Source: a virus. From it: a DNA stretch of 24,306 nt. The notes beneath the pieces were generated by a model, which searched no databases, was not told where the DNA came from, and saw nothing but the letters and a program-made list of their open reading frames with translations. This document shows positions 73 to 24,306 of the stretch, piece after piece. Where the stretch lies: positions 1 to 24,306 of the IMG/VR virus record IMGVR_UViG_3300025132_000289; one strand, written 5' to 3'. Within the stretch, counting starts at the first letter, position 1; each line of letters opens with the position of its first letter. The translations under genes were made by a program, and so were the position numbers.

Positions 73-272
73 CAGCTTTTCCGACGTGCAGGAAGCCGAC
101 TGCCACGCGCGGGTTCTCGCAAATCACGAATCTCTTTACGACGAGCCTGAATAGCACGAACCGGATCACGACGATCCTGATTACGACGCGCATTAGACGC
201 CGCCTGTCTAGGACTAACCTTCTTCCGACGGCCAGCCTTTCTCATGCGATAAATCGGTTTACTGTAAGCCAT
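72..272 (-). CDS. Arg/Lys-rich small basic protein
   Basis: A 66-aa protein starting MAYSKPIYRMRKAGRRKK, with about a third Arg or Lys along its whole length. The ATG at 272 is preceded on the minus strand by a GGGAAAG ribosome-binding site. Its stop shares bases with the next start at 72. The even spread of positive charge suggests nucleic-acid binding (packaging, head interior or RNA), but no family is recognised. It belongs to the leftward cluster 556-1. Confidence 0.6.
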   Translation of the reverse strand: MAYSKPIYRMRKAGRRKKVSPRQAASNARRNQDRRDPVRAIQARRKEIRDLREPARGSRLPARRKS

Positions 273-287
273 TACTTTTTTCTTTCC

Positions 288-368
288 CTAATCATAAAAC
301 ATCGCCGCAATCACACAAATCGCAAATACACAAATGAGGATTAGCGACAGGACATCGCCTACTGGCAC
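288..368 (-). CDS. Single-span membrane microprotein (26 aa)
   Basis: Starts at a GTG (366-368) inside the end of the preceding gene, with a GGAAGAG motif about 8 nt upstream. After MPVGD the rest is one hydrophobic segment (LSLILICVFAICVIAAMF), ending YD. No family is recognised. The overlap, ribosome-binding site and hydrophobic span are the only support, so a chance ORF is possible. The next gene (72-272) starts 15 nt after its stop. Confidence 0.4.
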   Translation of the reverse strand: MPVGDVLSLILICVFAICVIAAMFYD

Positions 369-571: not shown

Positions 572-600
572 TTGACGCAGCCGCAAAGCCACGCCATAAT
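572..600 (+). promoter_or_regulatory. Sigma-70-like promoter driving the structured RNA region
   Basis: TTGACG (572-577), a 17-nt spacer and CATAAT (595-600), each hexamer matching the consensus at 5 of 6 positions. Transcription would start near 607 and run rightward into the hairpin run, the 138-aa gene and possibly the whole plus-strand operon. The dyad at 588-606 covers the -10 box. Confidence 0.6.
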
Positions 601-606: not shown

Positions 607-1000
607 ACACCGCACGCAACACGGTCAACTGTTGCGCCCCGACCAGCCATCGGGAGATCGCCCGTCAGAAGGGCAGCCGCTGCATGTCCCAACAGGAATG
701 CAGCCTAGCAACCAAAGCTACTTGCTAGAGGCGACCAACCTAAACTGGCGGAGGGACCCAGGGGTGACCCGACCCCAAACCAAACAACAGGCAACCCAAC
801 AAACCAAAACTCCCCACAGACTGATTAGCATTATTTGTAGAGGGTGGTATCTCGGCACATCTACCCGTACAAAATCCAACACCAAGCCATTCCACCAAGG
901 GGGGGTGGCACTTAAACCACCGGCACCGGTCAAACAAAGTGAGACTTCCGTTAGTGGCGTGGGACCCCCTTGGTGTTTATGGATTGGTGGGATTTTGTGG
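607..1000 (+). ncRNA. Candidate structured leader/noncoding RNA with a run of hairpins
   Basis: No credible protein gene lies here. Five closely spaced hairpins are visible: 615-636 (7 bp, loop 8), 638-654 (5 bp, loop 7), 660-674 (4 bp, loop 7), 679-704 (7 bp plus 3 bp across a bulged G, loop 5) and 705-728 (7 bp, loop 10). A competing outer helix pairs 656-662 with 730-736 with one mismatch. Then comes an A/C-rich, nearly T-free stretch (about 771-820), and a GGTGG/CCACC hairpin at 904-921. It sits directly after the predicted promoter and leads into the self-complementary element. I do not recognise it as tRNA, tmRNA or a riboswitch. The strand is inferred from the promoter only. Confidence 0.45.
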
Positions 1001-1001
1001 A

Positions 1002-1330
1002 GGCGTCTGGTGAAGACTCCTTCGGAGATCGGAGTTTCTCTAAGTTGGCTAAAGTACCATTTAGGGCGTCCTTTCTAAGGCCGCGGGCGGTCCCCGGTTG
1101 CAACAGGCACCACGATGCCACACCACGAGCACCCGCTCCATGTGCCCTGTGCCACACCTCGTTCCTCGGCATGCCACATGCCACACTCCGGGGCGCCCGC
1201 GGCGCGGCGTTCGGGTGGCCTGTAAGCAACCGGGAACCACCCGGGGCCAAAGAAAGGAGTGCCCGAAATGGCACTTGAATCCAACAAAGAGAAACTGGCC
1301 GATCTCCTCAGTCGTCTTCACCAAGACGCC
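1002..1330. repeat. Inverted repeat arm A
   Basis: Exact paired blocks I can place: 1002-1008 with 1324-1330; 1009-1017 with 1314-1322; 1024-1032 with 1299-1307; 1033-1040 with 1289-1296; 1069-1076 with 1251-1258; 1093-1101 with 1226-1234. Block 1117-1134 pairs with 1191-1208 with five A-C mismatches on the plus strand, which become G-U pairs on the minus strand. The apex (about 1137-1190) folds further. The left half is a degenerate reverse copy of the leader, ribosome-binding site and first 21 or so codons of the gene at 1268, with stop codons, so it is not coding. Confidence 0.8.
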
Positions 1331-1684
1331 AAGAGGTTTTCGTTGATCGGAAACGAGCAGCGGAAGGGTCGCCAGACGTTCTGGGCCAACTACGACTCGG
1401 ACCTGGCTGTCGGATTTGTCCCAGCACAAACCTTCACCTCAGGCGAAGGCGGGACTCACCTCTACGCAGCGATCGCTGACGGAGAACAGTGGTTCATCGG
1501 CGTCATGGCCTGGCTGCGGCCAGAACGGTCGCTAATCGAAGATGCCCAAGAAAAGGATCACATCGTCGCGGCGATTCCGATGACCGACGCGGACCACGCG
1601 ATCGCAACGCTTCGTGAGATTGCCCTCCTGGTTCGCTCTAAGACTTCCAGCAAGCCTCAGTCCAAGAGCGTCTTCGCCAAGTAA
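1268..1684 (+). CDS. 138-aa protein of unknown family carried by the rod element
   Basis: Starts MALESNKEKLADLL and ends SVFAK. The ATG at 1268 has a strong AAAGGAG (1253-1259) 8 nt upstream; a GTG at 1259 is in frame but lies inside that site. The sequence reads like a real soluble alpha/beta protein: an N-terminal charged helix, strand-like stretches around residues 36-50 and 62-80 (THLYAAIADGEQWFIGVMAW), a later helix (about 108-128, ATLREIALLV) and a basic tail. Balanced composition and high GC at third codon positions support coding. No family is recognised, and I see no Cys/His metal motif, membrane span or signal peptide. The whole message is self-paired: the ribosome-binding site and start with arm A, the rest with arm B, so translation would need unwinding. 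The stop lies at the base of the 1680-1763 hairpin. Confidence 0.75.
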   Translation: MALESNKEKLADLLSRLHQDAKRFSLIGNEQRKGRQTFWANYDSDLAVGFVPAQTFTSGEGGTHLYAAIADGEQWFIGVMAWLRPERSLIEDAQEKDHIVAAIPMTDADHAIATLREIALLVRSKTSSKPQSKSVFAK

Positions 1685-2098
1685 CACTAAGGGCGAGTCC
1701 TGGTCTTCGGACCAGGGCGAACCCATGCCCTGGTCCGAAGTCCAGGCTAGCCCAAGTGTTACTAAGCGAAGAAGCTATTGGCCTGCTGCTTGGGAAGTCT
1801 TGAGCGCACCAGGGGTCAACCTCCTCAGCGGCGCTCGCGGGTCAGCGCCGGCCATCTCCATCTTGCGACTCTGTGTCCTTTTCTAAGGGCATCTCCGATG
1901 AGCTGACCGTCTTGGCCGCCTCCAGGCCATGCCACCATTCACCTACTGTTCTCTCGCCAGCGTCGCTGCGTAGGGTCGAGTCCACGCCTCGCCAGAGGTT
2001 CGGTTGGTGCGGGAAAATCTCGACATCCAGTCCCGAGTCTTCGTTGTCCCCGAACGTGGCGACCCTAACCGCTGTCGTTTCTCGATCAACGAAAACCT
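1334..2098. repeat. Inverted repeat arm B (degenerate reverse copy of the gene body)
   Basis: Exact blocks include 1334-1349 with 2083-2098 (16 bp), 1462-1471 with 1964-1973, 1483-1490 with 1945-1952, 1504-1513 with 1922-1931, 1640-1648 with 1793-1801, 1680-1688 with 1755-1763 and 1705-1718 with 1727-1740 (14 bp). The blocks are collinear, giving full-length correspondence of codon 23 to beyond the stop. The reverse copy (minus strand, 2098 to 1764) has frameshifting insertions and stops relative to the gene, so pairing rather than coding is kept. The arms are similar in length (385 and 372 nt). Confidence 0.8.
1680..1763. repeat. Apical hairpin after the 138-aa gene
   Basis: The tip of arm B: about 38 nt on each side around an 8-nt loop (1719-1726), with 14 perfect pairs next to the loop and nine at the base. 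It begins inside the last codon and stop of the gene. It has no T-tract on either side, so it is not a standard intrinsic terminator. Confidence 0.75.
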
Positions 2099-2129
2099 AG
2101 ATTAAGGAGCCGAGAGAAACCACCCTCTT

Positions 2130-2147
2130 GGTTCCACTATCACCATA
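2130..2147 (+). promoter_or_regulatory. Repeated intergenic motif, copy 1
   Basis: GGTTCCACTATCACCATA lies about 20 bp upstream of the gene at 2166. The core CACTATCACC recurs at 3367-3376 with similar flanks (GGTTC and CATA). Both copies are intergenic on the same strand, which suggests a protein-binding or promoter element, but no consensus is recognised. Confidence 0.35.
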
Positions 2148-2999: not shown

Positions 3000-3229
3000 T
3001 TACTGTTTACCGTGACGGCAACAATTTCCAGTTGCGATTCGATACACACGATCAAGCAACAAATATTTACAACACAAGTTATGTAACCATCAGGTGGCGT
3101 GACGCTAACGATCTTCAGACACGTCTGTCGCAGCTTCTGCTTGACTTTGAGATTGAGCGTGGTGCGTATCCAATCAACGATGAAGACGATTACATCCTTG
3201 ATCGTCATACCACAGGAGAACCGTTCTAA
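2996..3229 (+). CDS. Hypothetical early protein (77 aa), possible paralogue of its neighbour
   Basis: Starts MITVYRDGNNFQLRFDTHD. I chose ATG 2996 over GTG 2990 because it forms the ATGA overlap with the previous stop. It has beta-strand-like segments (YVTIRW), a helix (LQTRLSQLLLDFEIE) and an acidic end. The layout, a short strand pair followed by a helix, resembles the preceding 94-aa protein, suggesting an old tandem duplication at low confidence. Function unknown. Confidence 0.6.
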   Translation: MITVYRDGNNFQLRFDTHDQATNIYNTSYVTIRWRDANDLQTRLSQLLLDFEIERGAYPINDEDDYILDRHTTGEPF

Positions 3230-3362: not shown

Positions 3363-3380
3363 GGTTCACTATCACCCATA
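3363..3380 (+). promoter_or_regulatory. Repeated intergenic motif, copy 2
   Basis: GGGTTCACTATCACCCAT, sharing CACTATCACC with 2135-2144. It lies between the end of the first early block and the terminator hairpin at 3393, so it could be an operator or a promoter part. Confidence 0.35.
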
Positions 3381-3392
3381 TCTAACCGGTGT

Positions 3393-3446
3393 GCAGAGGA
3401 GGAGAGGTTCTTACTCCTTTCTCCCTCTCCTCCTCTGCGCTTTCTT
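3393..3446 (+). terminator. Intrinsic terminator between early blocks
   Basis: A perfect 15-bp stem (3393-3407 with 3424-3438), a 16-nt loop, then GCTTTCTTAA. One arm is all purine except one C and one T, the other its complement. It would end or attenuate transcription coming from 2166-3288. The stem is unusually long and the T-run is short, so partial read-through is likely. Confidence 0.6.
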
Positions 3447-3465: not shown

Positions 3466-3669
3466 ATGGGTCTTGTATTTGCTGGTCCTGATGAAGGCTT
3501 TGAGTTGGAGTGCGACAATTGCTATCAGCTTGAGTGGCGTGAGCGTTGGCTTGATGCTGGTTCTCTTGTCGTTGAAGCTGAGGGTGAAGGTTGGGAGTTA
3601 GAACAGTTGGACAAGTGGGACGGTGTGACATACGCCGATGCCAAGTGTCCAGAATGTGTAGAAGAATAA
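3466..3669 (+). CDS. Small acidic protein with two CxxC motifs (67 aa)
   Basis: Starts MGLVFAGPDEGFELECDNC. Start chosen at 3466 because AAGGTGG lies just upstream; ATG 3451 is an in-frame alternative. CDNC (residues 16-19) and CPEC (about 62-65) can form one zinc site bracketing a Glu/Trp-rich middle. It is the first gene after the terminator. The family is unknown; a zinc-ribbon fold is inferred from the spacing. Confidence 0.6.
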   Translation: MGLVFAGPDEGFELECDNCYQLEWRERWLDAGSLVVEAEGEGWELEQLDKWDGVTYADAKCPECVEE

Positions 3670-9234: not shown

Positions 9235-9411
9235 TTATTCAGTCTTTGAGCGAGAGTCCACAATTACGCCGAGAGTATGCAACGCTAGTGAACTGCCTGA
9301 AATCCAAAGACCCCAGCGAAGGGTGTCTCCAGACATGGTAATCAGGACGAGTCCTACGCCGCCTACTGTCCACGCAAGTGCGTAGCTCTCAAAGAAAATC
9401 TTTCTAATCAT
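9235..9411 (-). CDS. Two-span small membrane protein, possible second holin/antiholin
   Basis: A 58-aa protein: MIRKIFFESY, span one (ALAWTVGGVGLVLITM), a short turn (SGDTLR), span two (WGLWISGSSLALHTLGVIV), and a charged tail (DSRSKTE). GGAG lies about 5 nt before the ATG, inside the 3' end of the Thr-rich gene, which it overlaps by 8 nt. Its position directly upstream of the holin and endolysin in the transcription direction suggests a lysis role (antiholin or second holin), by inference. Confidence 0.6.
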   Translation of the reverse strand: MIRKIFFESYALAWTVGGVGLVLITMSGDTLRWGLWISGSSLALHTLGVIVDSRSKTE

Positions 9412-10597
9412 TTTTTCTCCGAGTAGTAGGTGTAGAAGGTCCTCCTGAAGTTGTTGGTGTGGTGGGGACGGGAGCAGGCGGGAGAGGCCGTGTAGCGGCT
9501 GCTACTGCGATGCTGGCACTTTGAACAGCAATGATAGCCCGTCGATCTTCGACGGTTACTGTGGAGCCTGACGGGATGTATTGCTCAGTCGCGCCACCAA
9601 AGATATTGACCTCTTCCTCAAACGCTTCTTTTACTTCGTCGTCTGCGTCTTGAATTGCTTCTGCGACTTCTTCGATTTGTTCGTCGGACAGTTCTTCGTA
9701 TTCAAGTTCTTCGATGACTTCTGGAGTGATCTCTTCTAGTTCAGGTAGAAGAGTCGTCGTTGGAGGAATAGTTGTTGTAGGCGGTTGAGTCGTCGTAGGC
9801 GGCAGCGTGGTAGTTGTCGTCGGCGGGACCGTTGTGGTCGTTGTCGTCGTACTCGTAGTAGTAGATGTTGACGTTGATGTCGTCGGTGGCAGCGTAGTCG
9901 TCGGTGGCAGAGTCGTAGTTGTCGTAGTCGTCGGTGGCAACGTAGTGGTCGTGGTGGGCGGCAAAGTGGACGAAGTAGTTGTCGTCGTCGTCGTTGGGGG
10001 CGCCTGAGTAGTCGTTGATGGTGGGGTCGTAGTGGTAGATGGCGGTGCCTCGGTCGTTGTAGTTACTGGGATCGTCGTCGTAGTCGTCGTCGTAGTGGGT
10101 GCTGCGGTAGTAGTCGTAGTCGTCGTTGTAGTCGTCGTCGTAGTAGTCGATGACGTTGTGGTCGTAGTCGTTGTCGTTGTTGTTGGAGGGGAGTATCCGT
10201 CGGTTGACCATGTGACTGTTCCTGAGCCGTCTGGAACATCCATTCCAGATTGTTCTTGGTACGTTCTAAATCGTAGGACATAAGTTCCTGCCTGGGGAGT
10301 GAGGTGGAGCTTGGACCCATAACAGTTGTCTTGTTCGTTGTGGTTTCCGTCGTCATCGTCGGCCACGATATTGCCTTCTGAGTCAATTAGGCGCAGCCAA
10401 GGGTCAACGGTTGTTGCAAAATCTAAAGGACAAGCGGTGTTGCTGTCGAATGTAACGCTAAGCAACGTTTCGCCGTCTAAAGTTATGTTGTAGTCCAAAT
10501 ATGGCGTATCTGCACTAAGCGAAACGCTTTCAAGTGCAGTTGCAGCGGGTGCAAACCAAGCTGCTATATAGAAAAAAACGAGCAACGCTTTGCTCAT
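9404..10597 (-). CDS. Secreted protein with beta-sandwich domain and long Thr-rich linker
   Basis: A 397-aa protein from ATG 10597 (ATG 10612 gives five more residues). N-terminal signal peptide: KALLVFFYIAAWFAPAATA. Residues about 22-125 look like a pre-peptidase-C-type beta-sandwich (ESVSLSADTPYLDYNITL, WLRLIDSEGNIVADDDDG, GTYVLRF). A linker of about 150 residues follows, almost all Thr with Pro and Ser. Then come an acidic helical block (ELEEITPEVIEELEYEELSD), EEEVNIFGGATEQYIPSGST and a Pro-rich tail. Likely exported to the host surface or matrix. It is cotranscribed with the lysis cassette. Confidence 0.7.
   Translation of the reverse strand: MSKALLVFFYIAAWFAPAATALESVSLSADTPYLDYNITLDGETLLSVTFDSNTACPLDFATTVDPWLRLIDSEGNIVADDDDGNHNEQDNCYGSKLHLTPQAGTYVLRFRTYQEQSGMDVPDGSGTVTWSTDGYSPPTTTTTTTTTTSSTTTTTTTTTTTTTTAAPTTTTTTTTIPVTTTTEAPPSTTTTPPSTTTQAPPTTTTTTTSSTLPPTTTTTLPPTTTTTTTLPPTTTLPPTTSTSTSTTTSTTTTTTTVPPTTTTTLPPTTTQPPTTTIPPTTTLLPELEEITPEVIEELEYEELSDEQIEEVAEAIQDADDEVKEAFEEEVNIFGGATEQYIPSGSTVTVEDRRAIIAVQSASIAVAAATRPLPPAPVPTTPTTSGGPSTPTTRRKND
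9750..10185 (-). repeat. Threonine-codon low-complexity tract
   Basis: On the minus strand this is nearly continuous ACN triplets with CCN punctuation, coding for the Thr/Pro linker; the plus strand reads as GTN runs. It produces spurious Val-, Asp- and Tyr-rich ORFs in other frames. Such tracts vary in length by slippage. Confidence 0.85.
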
Positions 10598-10640
10598 TCT
10601 ACGCCATTGCATTTCACAAAATTATCACAGGAAAAACTAA

Positions 10641-19986: not shown

Positions 19987-20001
19987 TATGGCCTACATCA
20001 G

Positions 20002-20451
20002 CTACGTTGCTGCGTTCCAAGTGTAACCGTTGGACTCCATCAACGCTCGCAGTTCGTCAGGGTTGTTGGTCTGGCGAATAAGCGCGTCAAGACTAGGATT
20101 AGTAACGGGTCCAGCATCGTCAGCCGCCATTGCAATTCGCTGCTCTGCCCCGTAATCAACGGGATCAGGCTGGATATACGGAGTATTACTCTCTCCGGTC
20201 AATCCAAGTTCAGCAGCTTCAGCACGAATGGCGTCAACAGTCATTTCGCCGTCGTAGCCCCGGATAAAATATTGACCCTGCTTTGAAGCGGGATCAACAC
20301 CTGCATCTCGGAACGACAACTCGCGTCGCAACTGTGCCAATTCAACAACAGCCTCATCACCCGCAGAAGCGCGGGATTCAAGGTCACGTCGCCAGTTTGG
20401 CTTCGATTCTTGGCTAACAGCATCAGCCTCAGTAGGCGTGTTCTCTGTCAT
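20002..20451 (-). CDS. Scaffolding-like protein
   Basis: A 149-aa, acidic, mainly helical protein: MTENTPTEADAVSQES, a central helix (AGDEAVVELAQLRRELSF), then DDAGPVTNPSLDALIRQTNN and a C-terminal helix (ELRALMESNGY). Position directly before the major capsid, acidic composition and short length fit a capsid scaffold, but no sequence signature proves it. The ribosome-binding site is AAGGTGAG. Confidence 0.55.
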   Translation of the reverse strand: MTENTPTEADAVSQESKPNWRRDLESRASAGDEAVVELAQLRRELSFRDAGVDPASKQGQYFIRGYDGEMTVDAIRAEAAELGLTGESNTPYIQPDPVDYGAEQRIAMAADDAGPVTNPSLDALIRQTNNPDELRALMESNGYTWNAAT

Positions 20452-20547
20452 ATGTCACTCACCTTCTAGTACGCGCTTGCAACGGTGGAATACAAGCGGA
20501 AATTGGGTTGGAATAGCTCACCCCGCATGGGGGCCAATCCGTTGTTT

Positions 20548-20576
20548 AGATTAAGAGGTTTCTGTTTAATCGTCAA
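20548..20576 (-). promoter_or_regulatory. Candidate promoter for the scaffold and capsid genes
   Basis: On the minus strand TTGACG (20576-20571), a 17-nt spacer and TAATCT (20553-20548). The -35 box equals that of the promoter at 572 (TTGACG); the -10 box is weak. The 120-bp gap to the next gene is the largest in this half of the operon and also holds a CCCC/GGGG hairpin. It would boost head proteins. Confidence 0.4.
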
Positions 20577-21868
20577 GTATTAGAGCTACCAAAGCCAGAA
20601 ACACCAGTCTGAGTAATCATAGAACCACTCATACGCGTGCCACGTCGTTGTCGCTCTTCGCGCAAACGACGTACATTAGCTACCGCTTCAGAATCCAAAC
20701 CAAACTCAGCAGCAGCAACCTCACTAGCAGAAATGCCACGCTGTTGTCCCAACATTTGCTGAGTCATGCCGCCACGGCCTTTCAAACGCTCACCCAACTC
20801 ACGTTCTGAATAACCACGACGCACAAGCTCCTGAGCAGTTTTAGTAGCCAAAGTACGACCTGTACCCAGAGCACGTTGAGTAGCCGCACCAAGCTCAGCC
20901 ACACCAACCTGACTCTGCATCTCAAGAAGGGGCACAGCACGCTCTGGATCAAGGAAATACGAAACCAAATCAGCTTCAGTATCTAGCCCAATACCAAACC
21001 GTTCCTGTAGCTCTGCCTTAACAAAAGGATCAGCGTCCATAACAGCACGTTGAGCTAACTTAATGCGCTCATTAACTTCATCAGGCCGGACATCATTAGC
21101 AATAAATGCAGCTAAATCTTCTGGTTCATCATAAAAACCAGGAGCAAATCCTGCTTCAACCATCAAGTTGCGATAGCTGTCTTCCAACGTTAGATAAGTA
21201 GCTGGAGAAATAGCGTTATAACCGTTGTCAAGTCTTTCCTGAAGCCCAGGAAACCGATCTTTAAACTCTTGAGTGTCTCTAATACGCCCTATGGCAGCTT
21301 CAGCAGACAACCCCTTCAACAGATACGATTCGATTTGTGGGAACAAACTGCTTAAGCCATAGTCGTCAAGCATTTGCTTTGCGATTTGCCAAGCATCCTG
21401 CACTTCAGCGCTTGCTTGATCCATCAATAAACGGTTAGAAAAGTCGTAGCCTTCTTGACCCATGCCAGCCAAAACACCATTGACATAGTTCATCGTAGAC
21501 ATGTTGACATCGCCCGTTGACAACGTGCCAGCAAAATACTCATCAACTCGGCCAGGACCAGCGTGCCACGCAACAGCAACAGCACCCCAATTCTGTCGTG
21601 CTACGCCGTTGAAATACTGATTGATAAGCTGCATAGCGCGCTCATCTTGAACAGCTTTCGGAGCATCTGCTGCTTGCTTGTAGCCTTTGTATCCGCCCCA
21701 AGTATCGTCAATAAACTGATAAGCGCCAGAAGCACGACCATACTTGGTTTCTGGACCAAAGATTTGGTAATTGCCGCCAGACTCAAAGTTCTTTAGCGAC
21801 GCCATAAAGGCGTACAGTTCTTGTTGATACGCTGCTGCGTTTTCCAACGCATTTCCACCAGGAATCAT
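20573..21868 (-). CDS. Virion-associated lytic transglycosylase
   Basis: A 431-aa protein. Residues about 25-115 are a lysozyme-like (Rpf/SLT-type) domain: NFESGGNYQIFGP with the catalytic Glu in FESGG, ASGAYQFIDDTWGGY, and AVAWHAGPG. The remaining 300 residues are helical and acidic (AELGAATQRALGTGR), probably an internal virion or ejection region. It likely loosens the wall at DNA entry. Adjacent to the large internal protein, with TAATG overlap. Confidence 0.75.
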   Translation of the reverse strand: MIPGGNALENAAAYQQELYAFMASLKNFESGGNYQIFGPETKYGRASGAYQFIDDTWGGYKGYKQAADAPKAVQDERAMQLINQYFNGVARQNWGAVAVAWHAGPGRVDEYFAGTLSTGDVNMSTMNYVNGVLAGMGQEGYDFSNRLLMDQASAEVQDAWQIAKQMLDDYGLSSLFPQIESYLLKGLSAEAAIGRIRDTQEFKDRFPGLQERLDNGYNAISPATYLTLEDSYRNLMVEAGFAPGFYDEPEDLAAFIANDVRPDEVNERIKLAQRAVMDADPFVKAELQERFGIGLDTEADLVSYFLDPERAVPLLEMQSQVGVAELGAATQRALGTGRTLATKTAQELVRRGYSERELGERLKGRGGMTQQMLGQQRGISASEVAAAEFGLDSEAVANVRRLREERQRRGTRMSGSMITQTGVSGFGSSNT

Positions 21869-24306
21869 TACGCTGTCTCCCCGAACAACTTGCCAATCTC
21901 AGTAACAACATCGCGTGCCGTGTCCTGACCCTGATCGCTCTGACCCCACTCAGGCAACCCACGCACATACTCACCCAACTCAGAATGAGTCATTGGGCGG
22001 GCACTTCCATCAGCAGAAACCATTTCGATAACTTCAGGGAACTCAACCATTAGGTCAACAGGACGATCAAGAATTAGTTCCATACGAGCCGTGTACGGAT
22101 CAAAATAATCTTCCATTGTCAAACCAGCCTGCAAAGCAGCACGAACCTGATCGCTAGTTCCATAACGGGCCATAGCCTGAGTACGCAACTGGGCAATAAC
22201 GCCCTCTTCAGTCATTTCGCCAGTAAACAACATCTGTGCATATTCATCACGACGTTTATCGGTAATCGGAATGTAGTACCTAGCAGCCAACGATTCGACT
22301 GAATCACGCGTCAACCTAAAAGAACTAAAGTCTGCGGTTGAAGCCTGCCAAGGAACTTCGGAACGAATAACGCTGTCAAGAAGTCGTTTACGCTGTTCAA
22401 CGCTATCGGTGTCGTAACCCAGATAGTCGATTTCTGCTGCCAACATAATCAGCCGGTTCTTGCCGATTGTGTCTTCAGCACCAGCACCCATGATCTCTCG
22501 GGCTGCTTGAACCAAATCTTCGTAAATACTGTCTTCTACATTGACACCCACTTTGTCTTCACGTTCAAACTGAGTGAGGTCAAACTGGAATGTACGAAGG
22601 GGATCAGCGCCAAACTCGCCTTCCCATTCACGCATTGAAACGTTTGTAGTGCGGTACCACTCGGTAGCACGAAGAGCTTCAAACAGCAGTTGGTCATCCA
22701 AGACTTGACCTGCTGGGCCGCTTGTATCGTGAGTTGTGTACCGGCCAGTAATGTAATCCAAAATGTGGACGTTGCGGACAGCTTCGTCAGAGTCTCGTTC
22801 TACTGGCTTGTCGAATTGGTTTAGGCCGATCTTCAGTTTGTCGGCATCCAAGTCAAAGAAGAACGAGAAACCGCCGTAGTTTTGCTCTAGATAAGTAGTG
22901 AGCAAGTCGTATTCAGCACGGTCAACAGGGCCGTCGTAATCTCCAACGTCTAATTCTTCAGGAGAACCGGCAAGCTCTGCTCTGCCTTCTTCACTAAACT
23001 GGTAAAGATAATCTAGTTCGTCCTGAGTATATGTTTGAGCACCTGATCCCGGTGGCTGAACTACGCCTTCCTGAGACTGTGCAGCGTCAATAAGTTCTTT
23101 GTCGGGTCCAAAAGCAAAGCCACGATCATCAAAGCCAACTGTAAGACCTTGGAGTTCGTCGCTGTAACCGCTTCGGATAAGAGCGCCACCAACGTCTTCA
23201 CCCTGCGTACTAGTAAGACCTTTAATCGTTGTTTCTAGAATGTCACGTTCGTCATAGGCAGCTTCGACCGAAGCAATCCGGTCGTCATGCAGAAGCAACC
23301 AATCTACTGGAACTTCAAACAATTCACGGGCTTGATCTAAATCGTAGTCAAAACCTGTTTCTTCATTAAAACCTGTAACACGATCAAACTCATCAGCGAG
23401 TTCTTGTGGACGACCGCCAAATAGACGCACCACTTTTTCAAGAGCATTAGGATCATTTTTGATGATGTCGTCATGCAACGCATTGCGAAGTTCGACGTAA
23501 TCTTCGATCGAAGACAACTGAACATCAGGGATGACGTAACTGTCGCTTAGTTTAATATCGCCAACGTCAATCGTTTGACCGCGCAAAAGCGCGTTCATGT
23601 CAATTTGTTTGCCAAAAACAAACTGGTTGAACGCGTAAATGTGTTCAGCGTGGTTAATAGGCCCAGCATCAAACTTTGTATTTGAAACAAATGTTTCGCT
23701 TCCACTAGGCAGCGAATCAATAAGTTCACTAATAAAAATATGAGCACCAACACGTTGACGACGAGCAGAAGCCGCATTCAAAGCTTGGTCTACAAGGTTG
23801 TTGTATCTGTCGTCTTTTTCGGTGCTTGTGCGTCGCTCCAGCGACATAAAAGTTTCAGTAGGAGCAAACAACCCACGCATCTCAGCGCTGTTAAGGCGAG
23901 TAGCCCATCCGTCTAGCTCACTAGGTTTGCCAGTAGCAAACGAAGTTCCGCTTGAAGACCCATACCGCTTGAACAACTGTTCAAACAAAGCTGCAAACTC
24001 TTCAGGGTCTTCATCTGCTGGAGTAACATATCTGCGACGATTTTGCCCAAGCCCAGACGGAACAGGCGGAGGAGGGGTGCGAGGCGCATCAGGGGTTGAA
24101 GTAGGTGACACATCACGAACTTCTTCTCCTGGTTTATTAACATTTCCAGTTTCAGGCTCACGATTACCGGGCGTATCCATTGGACGCTCAACCGGAGCAG
24201 ACTCTTCAGAAGGAAGATTCGTAGATTGCGCTAGAGCAGCTTCAGCTTGCTCCATTCGATTATCAGAAAGAACAACCTCTTGATTCTGCATATACAGATC
24301 AAGCAT
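21868..24306 (-). CDS. Large internal virion-like protein, possibly partial
   Basis: At least 812 aa. The first Met lies on the last bases of the window, so the true start may be outside. Residues about 30-95 are a Pro/Glu-rich linker (APVERPMDTPGNREPETG). The rest is long, acidic and mostly helical with no recognised catalytic motif. Large proteins of this kind next to a transglycosylase are usual as internal/ejection proteins in short-tailed phages. A portal or terminase role is not supported. Confidence 0.6.
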   Translation of the reverse strand: MLDLYMQNQEVVLSDNRMEQAEAALAQSTNLPSEESAPVERPMDTPGNREPETGNVNKPGEEVRDVSPTSTPDAPRTPPPPVPSGLGQNRRRYVTPADEDPEEFAALFEQLFKRYGSSSGTSFATGKPSELDGWATRLNSAEMRGLFAPTETFMSLERRTSTEKDDRYNNLVDQALNAASARRQRVGAHIFISELIDSLPSGSETFVSNTKFDAGPINHAEHIYAFNQFVFGKQIDMNALLRGQTIDVGDIKLSDSYVIPDVQLSSIEDYVELRNALHDDIIKNDPNALEKVVRLFGGRPQELADEFDRVTGFNEETGFDYDLDQARELFEVPVDWLLLHDDRIASVEAAYDERDILETTIKGLTSTQGEDVGGALIRSGYSDELQGLTVGFDDRGFAFGPDKELIDAAQSQEGVVQPPGSGAQTYTQDELDYLYQFSEEGRAELAGSPEELDVGDYDGPVDRAEYDLLTTYLEQNYGGFSFFFDLDADKLKIGLNQFDKPVERDSDEAVRNVHILDYITGRYTTHDTSGPAGQVLDDQLLFEALRATEWYRTTNVSMREWEGEFGADPLRTFQFDLTQFEREDKVGVNVEDSIYEDLVQAAREIMGAGAEDTIGKNRLIMLAAEIDYLGYDTDSVEQRKRLLDSVIRSEVPWQASTADFSSFRLTRDSVESLAARYYIPITDKRRDEYAQMLFTGEMTEEGVIAQLRTQAMARYGTSDQVRAALQAGLTMEDYFDPYTARMELILDRPVDLMVEFPEVIEMVSADGSARPMTHSELGEYVRGLPEWGQSDQGQDTARDVVTEIGKLFGETA

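Follow-up and report, generated by a model that had tools for sequence, protein, structure and literature searches.

The RNA of HDV is rod-like. HDV and the Ribozyviria possess a circular RNA of about 1.7 kb that encodes one protein (PMC13096302). Obelisks, which are RNAs coding for Oblin-1, are also rod-shaped, have a size of about 1 kb and contain a protein gene (PMC13096302, PMC11922315). Their ORFs pair mostly within themselves (82%), and Oblin-1 is composed of an alpha-helical bundle and a two-stranded sheet (PMC13096302). Among the structured RNAs encoded by phages, GOLLD and ROOL are giants, GOLLD comprising a conserved and a variable part (PMC12286853), while the structured cabRNA, which is transcribed from terminase genes, is sensed by a host cyclase (CBASS) (PMC10686824).

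The element described here is located in the window, by which the whole stretch of DNA analyzed is meant, a linear IMG/VR record of 24.3 kb. The genes identified in the window code for a major head protein, a tail fibre protein, an exonuclease subunit of DNA polymerase, a PD-(D/E)XK nuclease and a WhiB regulator, and the head protein is nearest (40%) to those of Streptomyces phages. The element sits between leftward oriented genes and a rightward gene block. Similar to Obelisks, it is a predicted rod of approximately 1 kb containing a protein gene; the corresponding rod of the relative G002 comprises 1.6 kb and the structure in G005 2.3 kb. Unlike Obelisks, it is part of a dsDNA phage genome, in which a promoter and a leader precede it, its size varies from 1.1 to 2.3 kb, and the gene pairs with a separate antisense arm and not mostly with itself. 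The protein of G005, for which the order alpha-alpha-beta4-alpha was predicted, is set apart from Oblin-1 by the published description of the latter (PMC13096302). Rfam scans of the window and of the loci L004 (G002) and L007 (G005) revealed neither hammerhead ribozymes, which occur in a subset of Obelisks, nor ribozymes of the HDV type, whereas HDV has ribozymes in both polarities. Because two tested Obelisk features were not found, the element was not filed as an Obelisk, and as circularity, self-cleavage and RNA replication are without support, the Obelisk reading is only an analogy. What stood of the Obelisk and delta-like plan put forward in the initial annotation is a rod of about 1.1 kb, encoded by a tailed dsDNA phage and containing a genuine protein gene; an identity with these agents is not supported in view of the ribozymes not found, the protein fold, the separate antisense arm, the clade-wide leader and the varying size.

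With GOLLD and ROOL the element has in common that it would be a very large structured RNA encoded by a phage, and with GOLLD also the combination of conserved and variable parts. However, GOLLD and ROOL have branched folds, whereas rods are predicted here, and a tRNA scan of the window was empty. To our knowledge, there is no protein gene inside the fold of GOLLD or ROOL. Covariance models of Rfam including GOLLD, ROOL and OLE did not match the window, L004 or L007. Permissive Rfam hits on the window were discarded as chance matches to miRNA models, so that no known RNA was recognized with strict or permissive settings. Like cabRNA, the element would be a folded phage RNA, and cabRNA shows that such an RNA can matter in defence (PMC10686824), but cabRNA is not known to involve a giant self-complementary gene. 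Since none of the tested families contains a gene which is paired lengthwise to an antisense arm that is non-coding and belongs to the same predicted RNA, and which is kept so under divergence, here in three phages and despite near-total divergence, the element seems to represent a type of RNA element that has not been described before.

The fold energies calculated for positions 1001–2100 were −705.7 kcal/mol (plus strand) and −796.9 kcal/mol (minus strand), compared to −413.6 ± 9.3 and −444.3 ± 9.4 kcal/mol for dinucleotide shuffles. Thus, the stretch folds better than shuffled sequence in both polarities (z about −31 and about −38, respectively), with 79–83% of the bases being paired. Circular folding gave −701.7 kcal/mol and the same structure as linear folding. 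In a scan of the window with stretches of 1.1 kb, comparable folding was detected only where these overlapped the element. Positions 1001–2100 are made up of two adjacent imperfect inverted repeats, termed rod B and rod A (Table 1). The arms of rod A match at 78% over 792 columns (E 1e-135), its longest exact block being 16 bp, and those of rod B at 72% (E 4e-34). The first 60 nucleotides or so of a 138-aa ORF have their partner upstream (1002–1158), the remainder downstream (1727–2098). In these respects the fold agrees with the initial annotation, which had described two imperfect inverted repeats over nearly all of this stretch, exact blocks of up to 16 bp and this very division of the gene between upstream and downstream partners. 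The single unbranched rod proposed there had to be revised, since a linear RNA is predicted to form two rods. In the fold of positions 560–2200, both are arms of a larger closed structure (839–2128) with the closing stem P1 and a third hairpin. An assembly artefact was ruled out, as the arms differ by 14–25% and IMG/VR contigs of three phages, each a separate record, show this design.

Table 1. Features of the element and its upstream region (positions in the window)
Feature	Position	Strand	Remarks
Sigma-70-like promoter TTGACG-17-CATAAT	572–600	+	Consensus match only; reads into the element
Structured leader RNA domain	608–752	+	Two hairpins followed by a three-way junction; in at least ten phages of the clade
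A/C-rich linker	753–838	+	Presumably unstructured; ends in GATTAGCATTATTT
Closing stem P1, 5′ strand	839–863	+	From the predicted fold
Hairpin C	865–1000	+	Loop nearly identical in G002, stem sequences differ
Rod B	1002–1330	+	Arms 1002–1158/1168–1330; includes the start of the ORF (~60 nt) with its leader and ribosome-binding site
Tip motif CCTCGTTCCTCG	1157–1168	+	At or beside the rod tip; G002 and G005 have one copy each, likewise near the tips
Ribosome-binding site AAAGGAG	1253–1259	+	From the sequence; mostly paired in the predicted fold
138-aa ORF	1268–1684	+	Homologous to ORFs of 153 aa (G002) and 146 aa (G005); matches no known family
Rod A	1334–2098	+	Arms 1334–1718 (ORF) and 1727–2098 (non-coding antisense); 8-nt loop
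Closing stem P1, 3′ strand	2098–2128	+	From the predicted fold
CACTATCAC	2135–2143	+	Follows P1 immediately in all three phages (window, G002, G005)

The reverse copy of the ORF contains stops and frame breaks, which is in line with the earlier statement that pairing and not protein is common to both sides. The ORF products of G002 and G005 are 36% identical (E 1e-19), those of the window and G002 27% (E 0.001). One profile matches all three proteins; elsewhere in the fetched contigs it recognized only the degenerate reverse copy. Coding is supported by the GC pattern of the codons in G002 and G005, which is low at the second and high at the third position. No relative of the 138-aa protein was found among the sequences of Pfam, PHROGs, NCBIfam, PADLOC and PDB, and neither direct protein and DNA searches of phage, plasmid and viral collections nor a protein-pattern scan of bacterial genomes gave a match. 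An AlphaFold model could be obtained for the G005 protein (pLDDT 76), while the window protein was modelled poorly. Foldseek matches to coat proteins of ssRNA phages and to SSB were discarded because of a TM of about 0.2. As the G005 model is without a significant structural match, it does not indicate a function.

Upstream of the element, a promoter pattern and a structured leader precede the rods (Table 1), and the promoter pattern is present at the same place in G002 and G005. When a hand-written structure of the leader was applied to four sequences, 4 of 35 pairs revealed double changes and 97% of the cells were paired, a result that no slid control approached. Further phages of the clade carrying the leader were identified by an nhmmer search, and in an alignment of 12 sequences compensatory double changes occurred in 12 of 25 consensus pairs. 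The leader together with its A/C-rich tail is located at 608–839 in the window, at 3200–3431 in L004, at 2625–2871 in L007 and at 105–334 (minus strand) in L119; the leader was also observed in L113, L106, L091, L104, L109 and L087. Rfam scans of the window, L004 and L007 did not recognize it, and scans of bacterial genomes with the leader motif found nothing. Being a clade-wide structured leader at the junction of early and late genes, it is a candidate for an RNA family in its own right. A PF00940 scan for a phage-type RNA polymerase behind CACTATCAC gave no match, but the control genomes gave none either.

Relatives could be reached only via neighbouring genes and the leader, G002 and G005 via a DUF932-like neighbour, and complete examples of rod and gene are available from three phages (window, G002 and G005). 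The G002 rod (L004, 3662–5250) lies at the same genomic place as the element of the window. In G005, the rod (L007, 3155–3859/4831–5421) encloses a pyrimidine-rich loop of 970 nucleotides, which is included in the size of the structure. This loop (L007, 3860–4830) is TCGTCG/TCCTCC-like and consists of 78% pyrimidines; its long open frames look like an effect of composition only. The rods folded with z values of −30 and −45 in G002 and, after removal of the loop, −53 and −57 in G005. Each of them holds an ORF with a ribosome-binding site that is paired lengthwise to a non-coding strand. Because rods with a homologous ORF exist in two relatives, the element is not unique to the window contig. 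The flanks align with the window at 88% (G002) and 79% (G005), whereas the rod sequences are unalignable. Likewise, the neighbouring proteins compared are 69–92% identical and the ORF products only 27 and 36%, from which it can be concluded that the cassette evolves or is exchanged far faster than its surroundings. P1 was found in all three phages with mostly different stem sequences. In G002, further copies of CACTATCAC at positions 3620 and 4118 (L004) fall into parts of the structure predicted to be unpaired. The antisense strand is positioned wholly upstream of the gene in G002 and G005, but mostly downstream in the window. What is conserved is the pairing of the gene, not the location of its partner.

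According to the predicted folds, the RNA encoded here is a closed imperfect hairpin of giant size. A genuine protein gene is paired to a non-coding strand along nearly all of its length, and this architecture was kept in three phages while the sequence and the side of the antisense strand changed. On balance, it is probable that the element is an accessory RNA–protein cassette in an early transcript of an actinophage-like group of tailed phages and that the rod RNA itself is functional, a claim on function which is much weaker than that on the architecture. The plus strand would be transcribed early from the promoter at position 572 through the leader, and the RNA would fold while being made, thereby hiding the ribosome-binding site of the gene. 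By keeping frequent non-wobble mismatches, the rod may avoid a long perfect duplex and resist RNase III. The folded RNA would then be the functional product; the role favoured here, tentatively, is that of a long duplex-like decoy or scaffold for an RNA-binding or defence protein of the host or the phage. Translation of the protein would be confined to open states of the rod, in which the RNA is nascent, processed or unwound, and the protein may in turn bind the RNA that encodes it, even though neither a protein family nor a confident fold gave a hint of RNA binding. If the element is transcribed, rod-shaped RNA elements would be linked with tailed DNA phages, and it would become testable whether phages deploy long imperfect duplex RNA in bacteria, by what means such RNA evades RNase III and whether host defence is affected by it.

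In the predicted folds of all three phages, the ribosome-binding site and the start codon are mostly paired, so that translation should be locked once the rod has formed. It is therefore conceivable, albeit rather unlikely, that the antisense arm is a switch keeping translation or the expression of the early operon off until a trigger arrives and that the RNA has no other role, and in G002 and G005 the antisense arm would indeed be transcribed before the gene. However, hiding a ribosome-binding site takes tens of bases, whereas nearly the whole gene is paired here. As a short helix would suffice for a lock, pairing over the full length is taken to suggest a use of the RNA itself. Moreover, the gene of the window pairs mostly with sequence transcribed later, and the pairing of the gene body is left unexplained by a switch.

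To assess selection on pairing, the differences between the homologues and the mismatches within the rods were inspected. Between the phage pairs, 195, 213 and 214 ORF sites differ, of which 67, 72 and 64%, respectively, are Watson-Crick paired in both phages. Differences between homologues are thus mostly compensated, which speaks for the initial annotation, as substitutions ignoring the pairing had been named there as refuting evidence. Since gene conversion or re-duplication alone could also give matched differences, the types of mismatches matter. Read on the plus strand, A·C exceeds G·T (68 vs. 4) and C·U exceeds A·G (67 vs. 3) in G002 (p about 1e-16), where each main type was seen in both orientations between the arms. 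The window showed the same tendency (A·C 18 vs. G·T 3; C·U 30 vs. A·G 8), and in G005, which has fewer mismatches, the bias has the same direction and is not significant. Third codon positions do not have an excess of mismatches, most of which would be nonsynonymous if the other arm were read as a gene. For these reasons, together with the stops in the reverse reading, the second arm does not appear to be under protein-coding selection. In the outer rod of G002, 82 of 86 interruptions are single, and the longest perfect run comprises 12 bp compared to a permutation mean of 21.7 (p 0.002; p 0.02 with a null keeping interruptions apart). In rod A of the window, the pairing is broken by mismatches as well as some thirty bulge bases without a partner; the variance of its run lengths is low (p 0.0015), the longest run is not unusual. 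No regularity of spacing was detected in G005, whose perfect runs reach 28 bp.

Such data bear on the possibility that an inverted gene duplication is merely kept alike by recombination or templated repair, without an RNA function. The arms are inverted copies, the reverse copy of G002 is still 53% identical to the protein, and spacing and mismatch types of G005 look random. Nevertheless, the strong strand-specific bias in two phages, the conservation of the enclosing stem and the tip motif despite different sequences, and the recurrence of the design in three phages, irrespective of the side taken by the antisense, make this explanation improbable. Strand-biased, non-coding-like mismatches argue against decaying gene duplicates, and neither a decaying coding duplicate nor a cruciform involving both strands would predict this pattern.

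The bias itself can be read in two ways, either as a minus strand tolerating G·U and G·A or as a plus strand keeping real non-wobble mismatches. In each of the three phages, better folding was calculated for the minus strand, and selection on a minus-strand RNA is therefore an alternative reading of the same bias. We infer that the plus strand is the functional one, which is favoured by the location of the promoter, the ORF and the ribosome-binding site on this strand, by a leader helix that keeps U·G in three of four sequences, and by the unpaired stretches (linker and G005 loop), which are G-poor on the plus strand. Furthermore, A·C and C·U are similarly frequent, unlike what wobble tolerance on the minus strand would produce.

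The layouts of the window and of G002 and G005 are circular permutations of each other, anchored on the shared tip motif CCTCGTTCCTCG. They would fit a circular intermediate and could be taken to indicate a replicating RNA of the Obelisk or delta type, or a captured remnant of one, in the form of a circular rod RNA with its own gene in phage DNA. The rod with a single ORF of similar size, the about equal stability of the circular fold and the fact that ORF and rod always travel together would also be compatible with a replicon. On the other hand, a new inverted duplication together with a deletion would explain the permutation as well. Apart from the negative ribozyme scans, the ORF is not self-paired and the predicted protein fold is unlike Oblin-1 (PMC13096302). 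The rod is enclosed by a stem and situated behind a leader that is conserved in phages without rods, and no polymerase or ligase family was found among the ten G002 proteins scanned. Hence, a replicon is very unlikely. Within the preferred reading of an RNA–protein cassette, a single product may act as messenger and as giant duplex-like RNA machine, an imperfect rod composed of a gene and its antisense and selected for its shape and not its sequence, with strands free to permute and possibly circular or independently amplified, a proposal we regard as speculative.

The head-protein search yielded 60 loci, and none of the long contigs fetched from it contains a comparable inverted repeat. Rod and gene are both absent from G007, G013, G016, G026 and G030, which have a leader or a weak leader match and enough sequence beyond it, as well as from G015 with its marginal leader match. 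In relatives without rods, folding beyond the leader gave z values between 2.5 and −6.5, and in G016, G013 and G020, the sequence following the leader folds no differently from shuffled controls. Rod and ORF consequently co-occur in three of three cases and are jointly absent from relatives readable past the leader, which identifies them as an accessory feature of a subgroup. The contigs of G017, G006, G020 and L119 end about 0.03–0.84 kb from the leader and were left out of this comparison. A contig end some 30–840 nucleotides past the leader (L113, L119, L109 and G020) could mark either the end of a genome or a strong hairpin at which the assembly broke off. A palindrome acting at the DNA level, for instance as an origin of replication or a site of packaging or recombination where early and late genes meet, would suit the position between divergent gene blocks and the contigs that end soon after the leader as at a genome end or difficult hairpin, but this explanation is very unlikely, since strand asymmetry is unexpected for a two-stranded cruciform, the promoter, the ribosome-binding site and the ORF relate to RNA, and other members of the clade lack the palindrome.

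Some further observations were made in the neighbourhood of the leader and elsewhere in the window. In G007 (L087, about 20000–23160), the region behind the leader is GC-rich and contains many short inverted repeats, two copies of CACTATCAC and several ORFs; possibly, a different element resides at the same place. In the window, a 402-aa ORF on the minus strand (9404–10612) contains a very long threonine-rich tract interspersed with prolines. A perfect inverted repeat of 15 bp (GCAGAGGAGGAGAGG/CCTCTCCTCCTCTGC) is located at 3393–3438 ahead of a gene starting at 3466. It is preceded by a second CACTATCAC at 3367 and would hide an AGGAGG.
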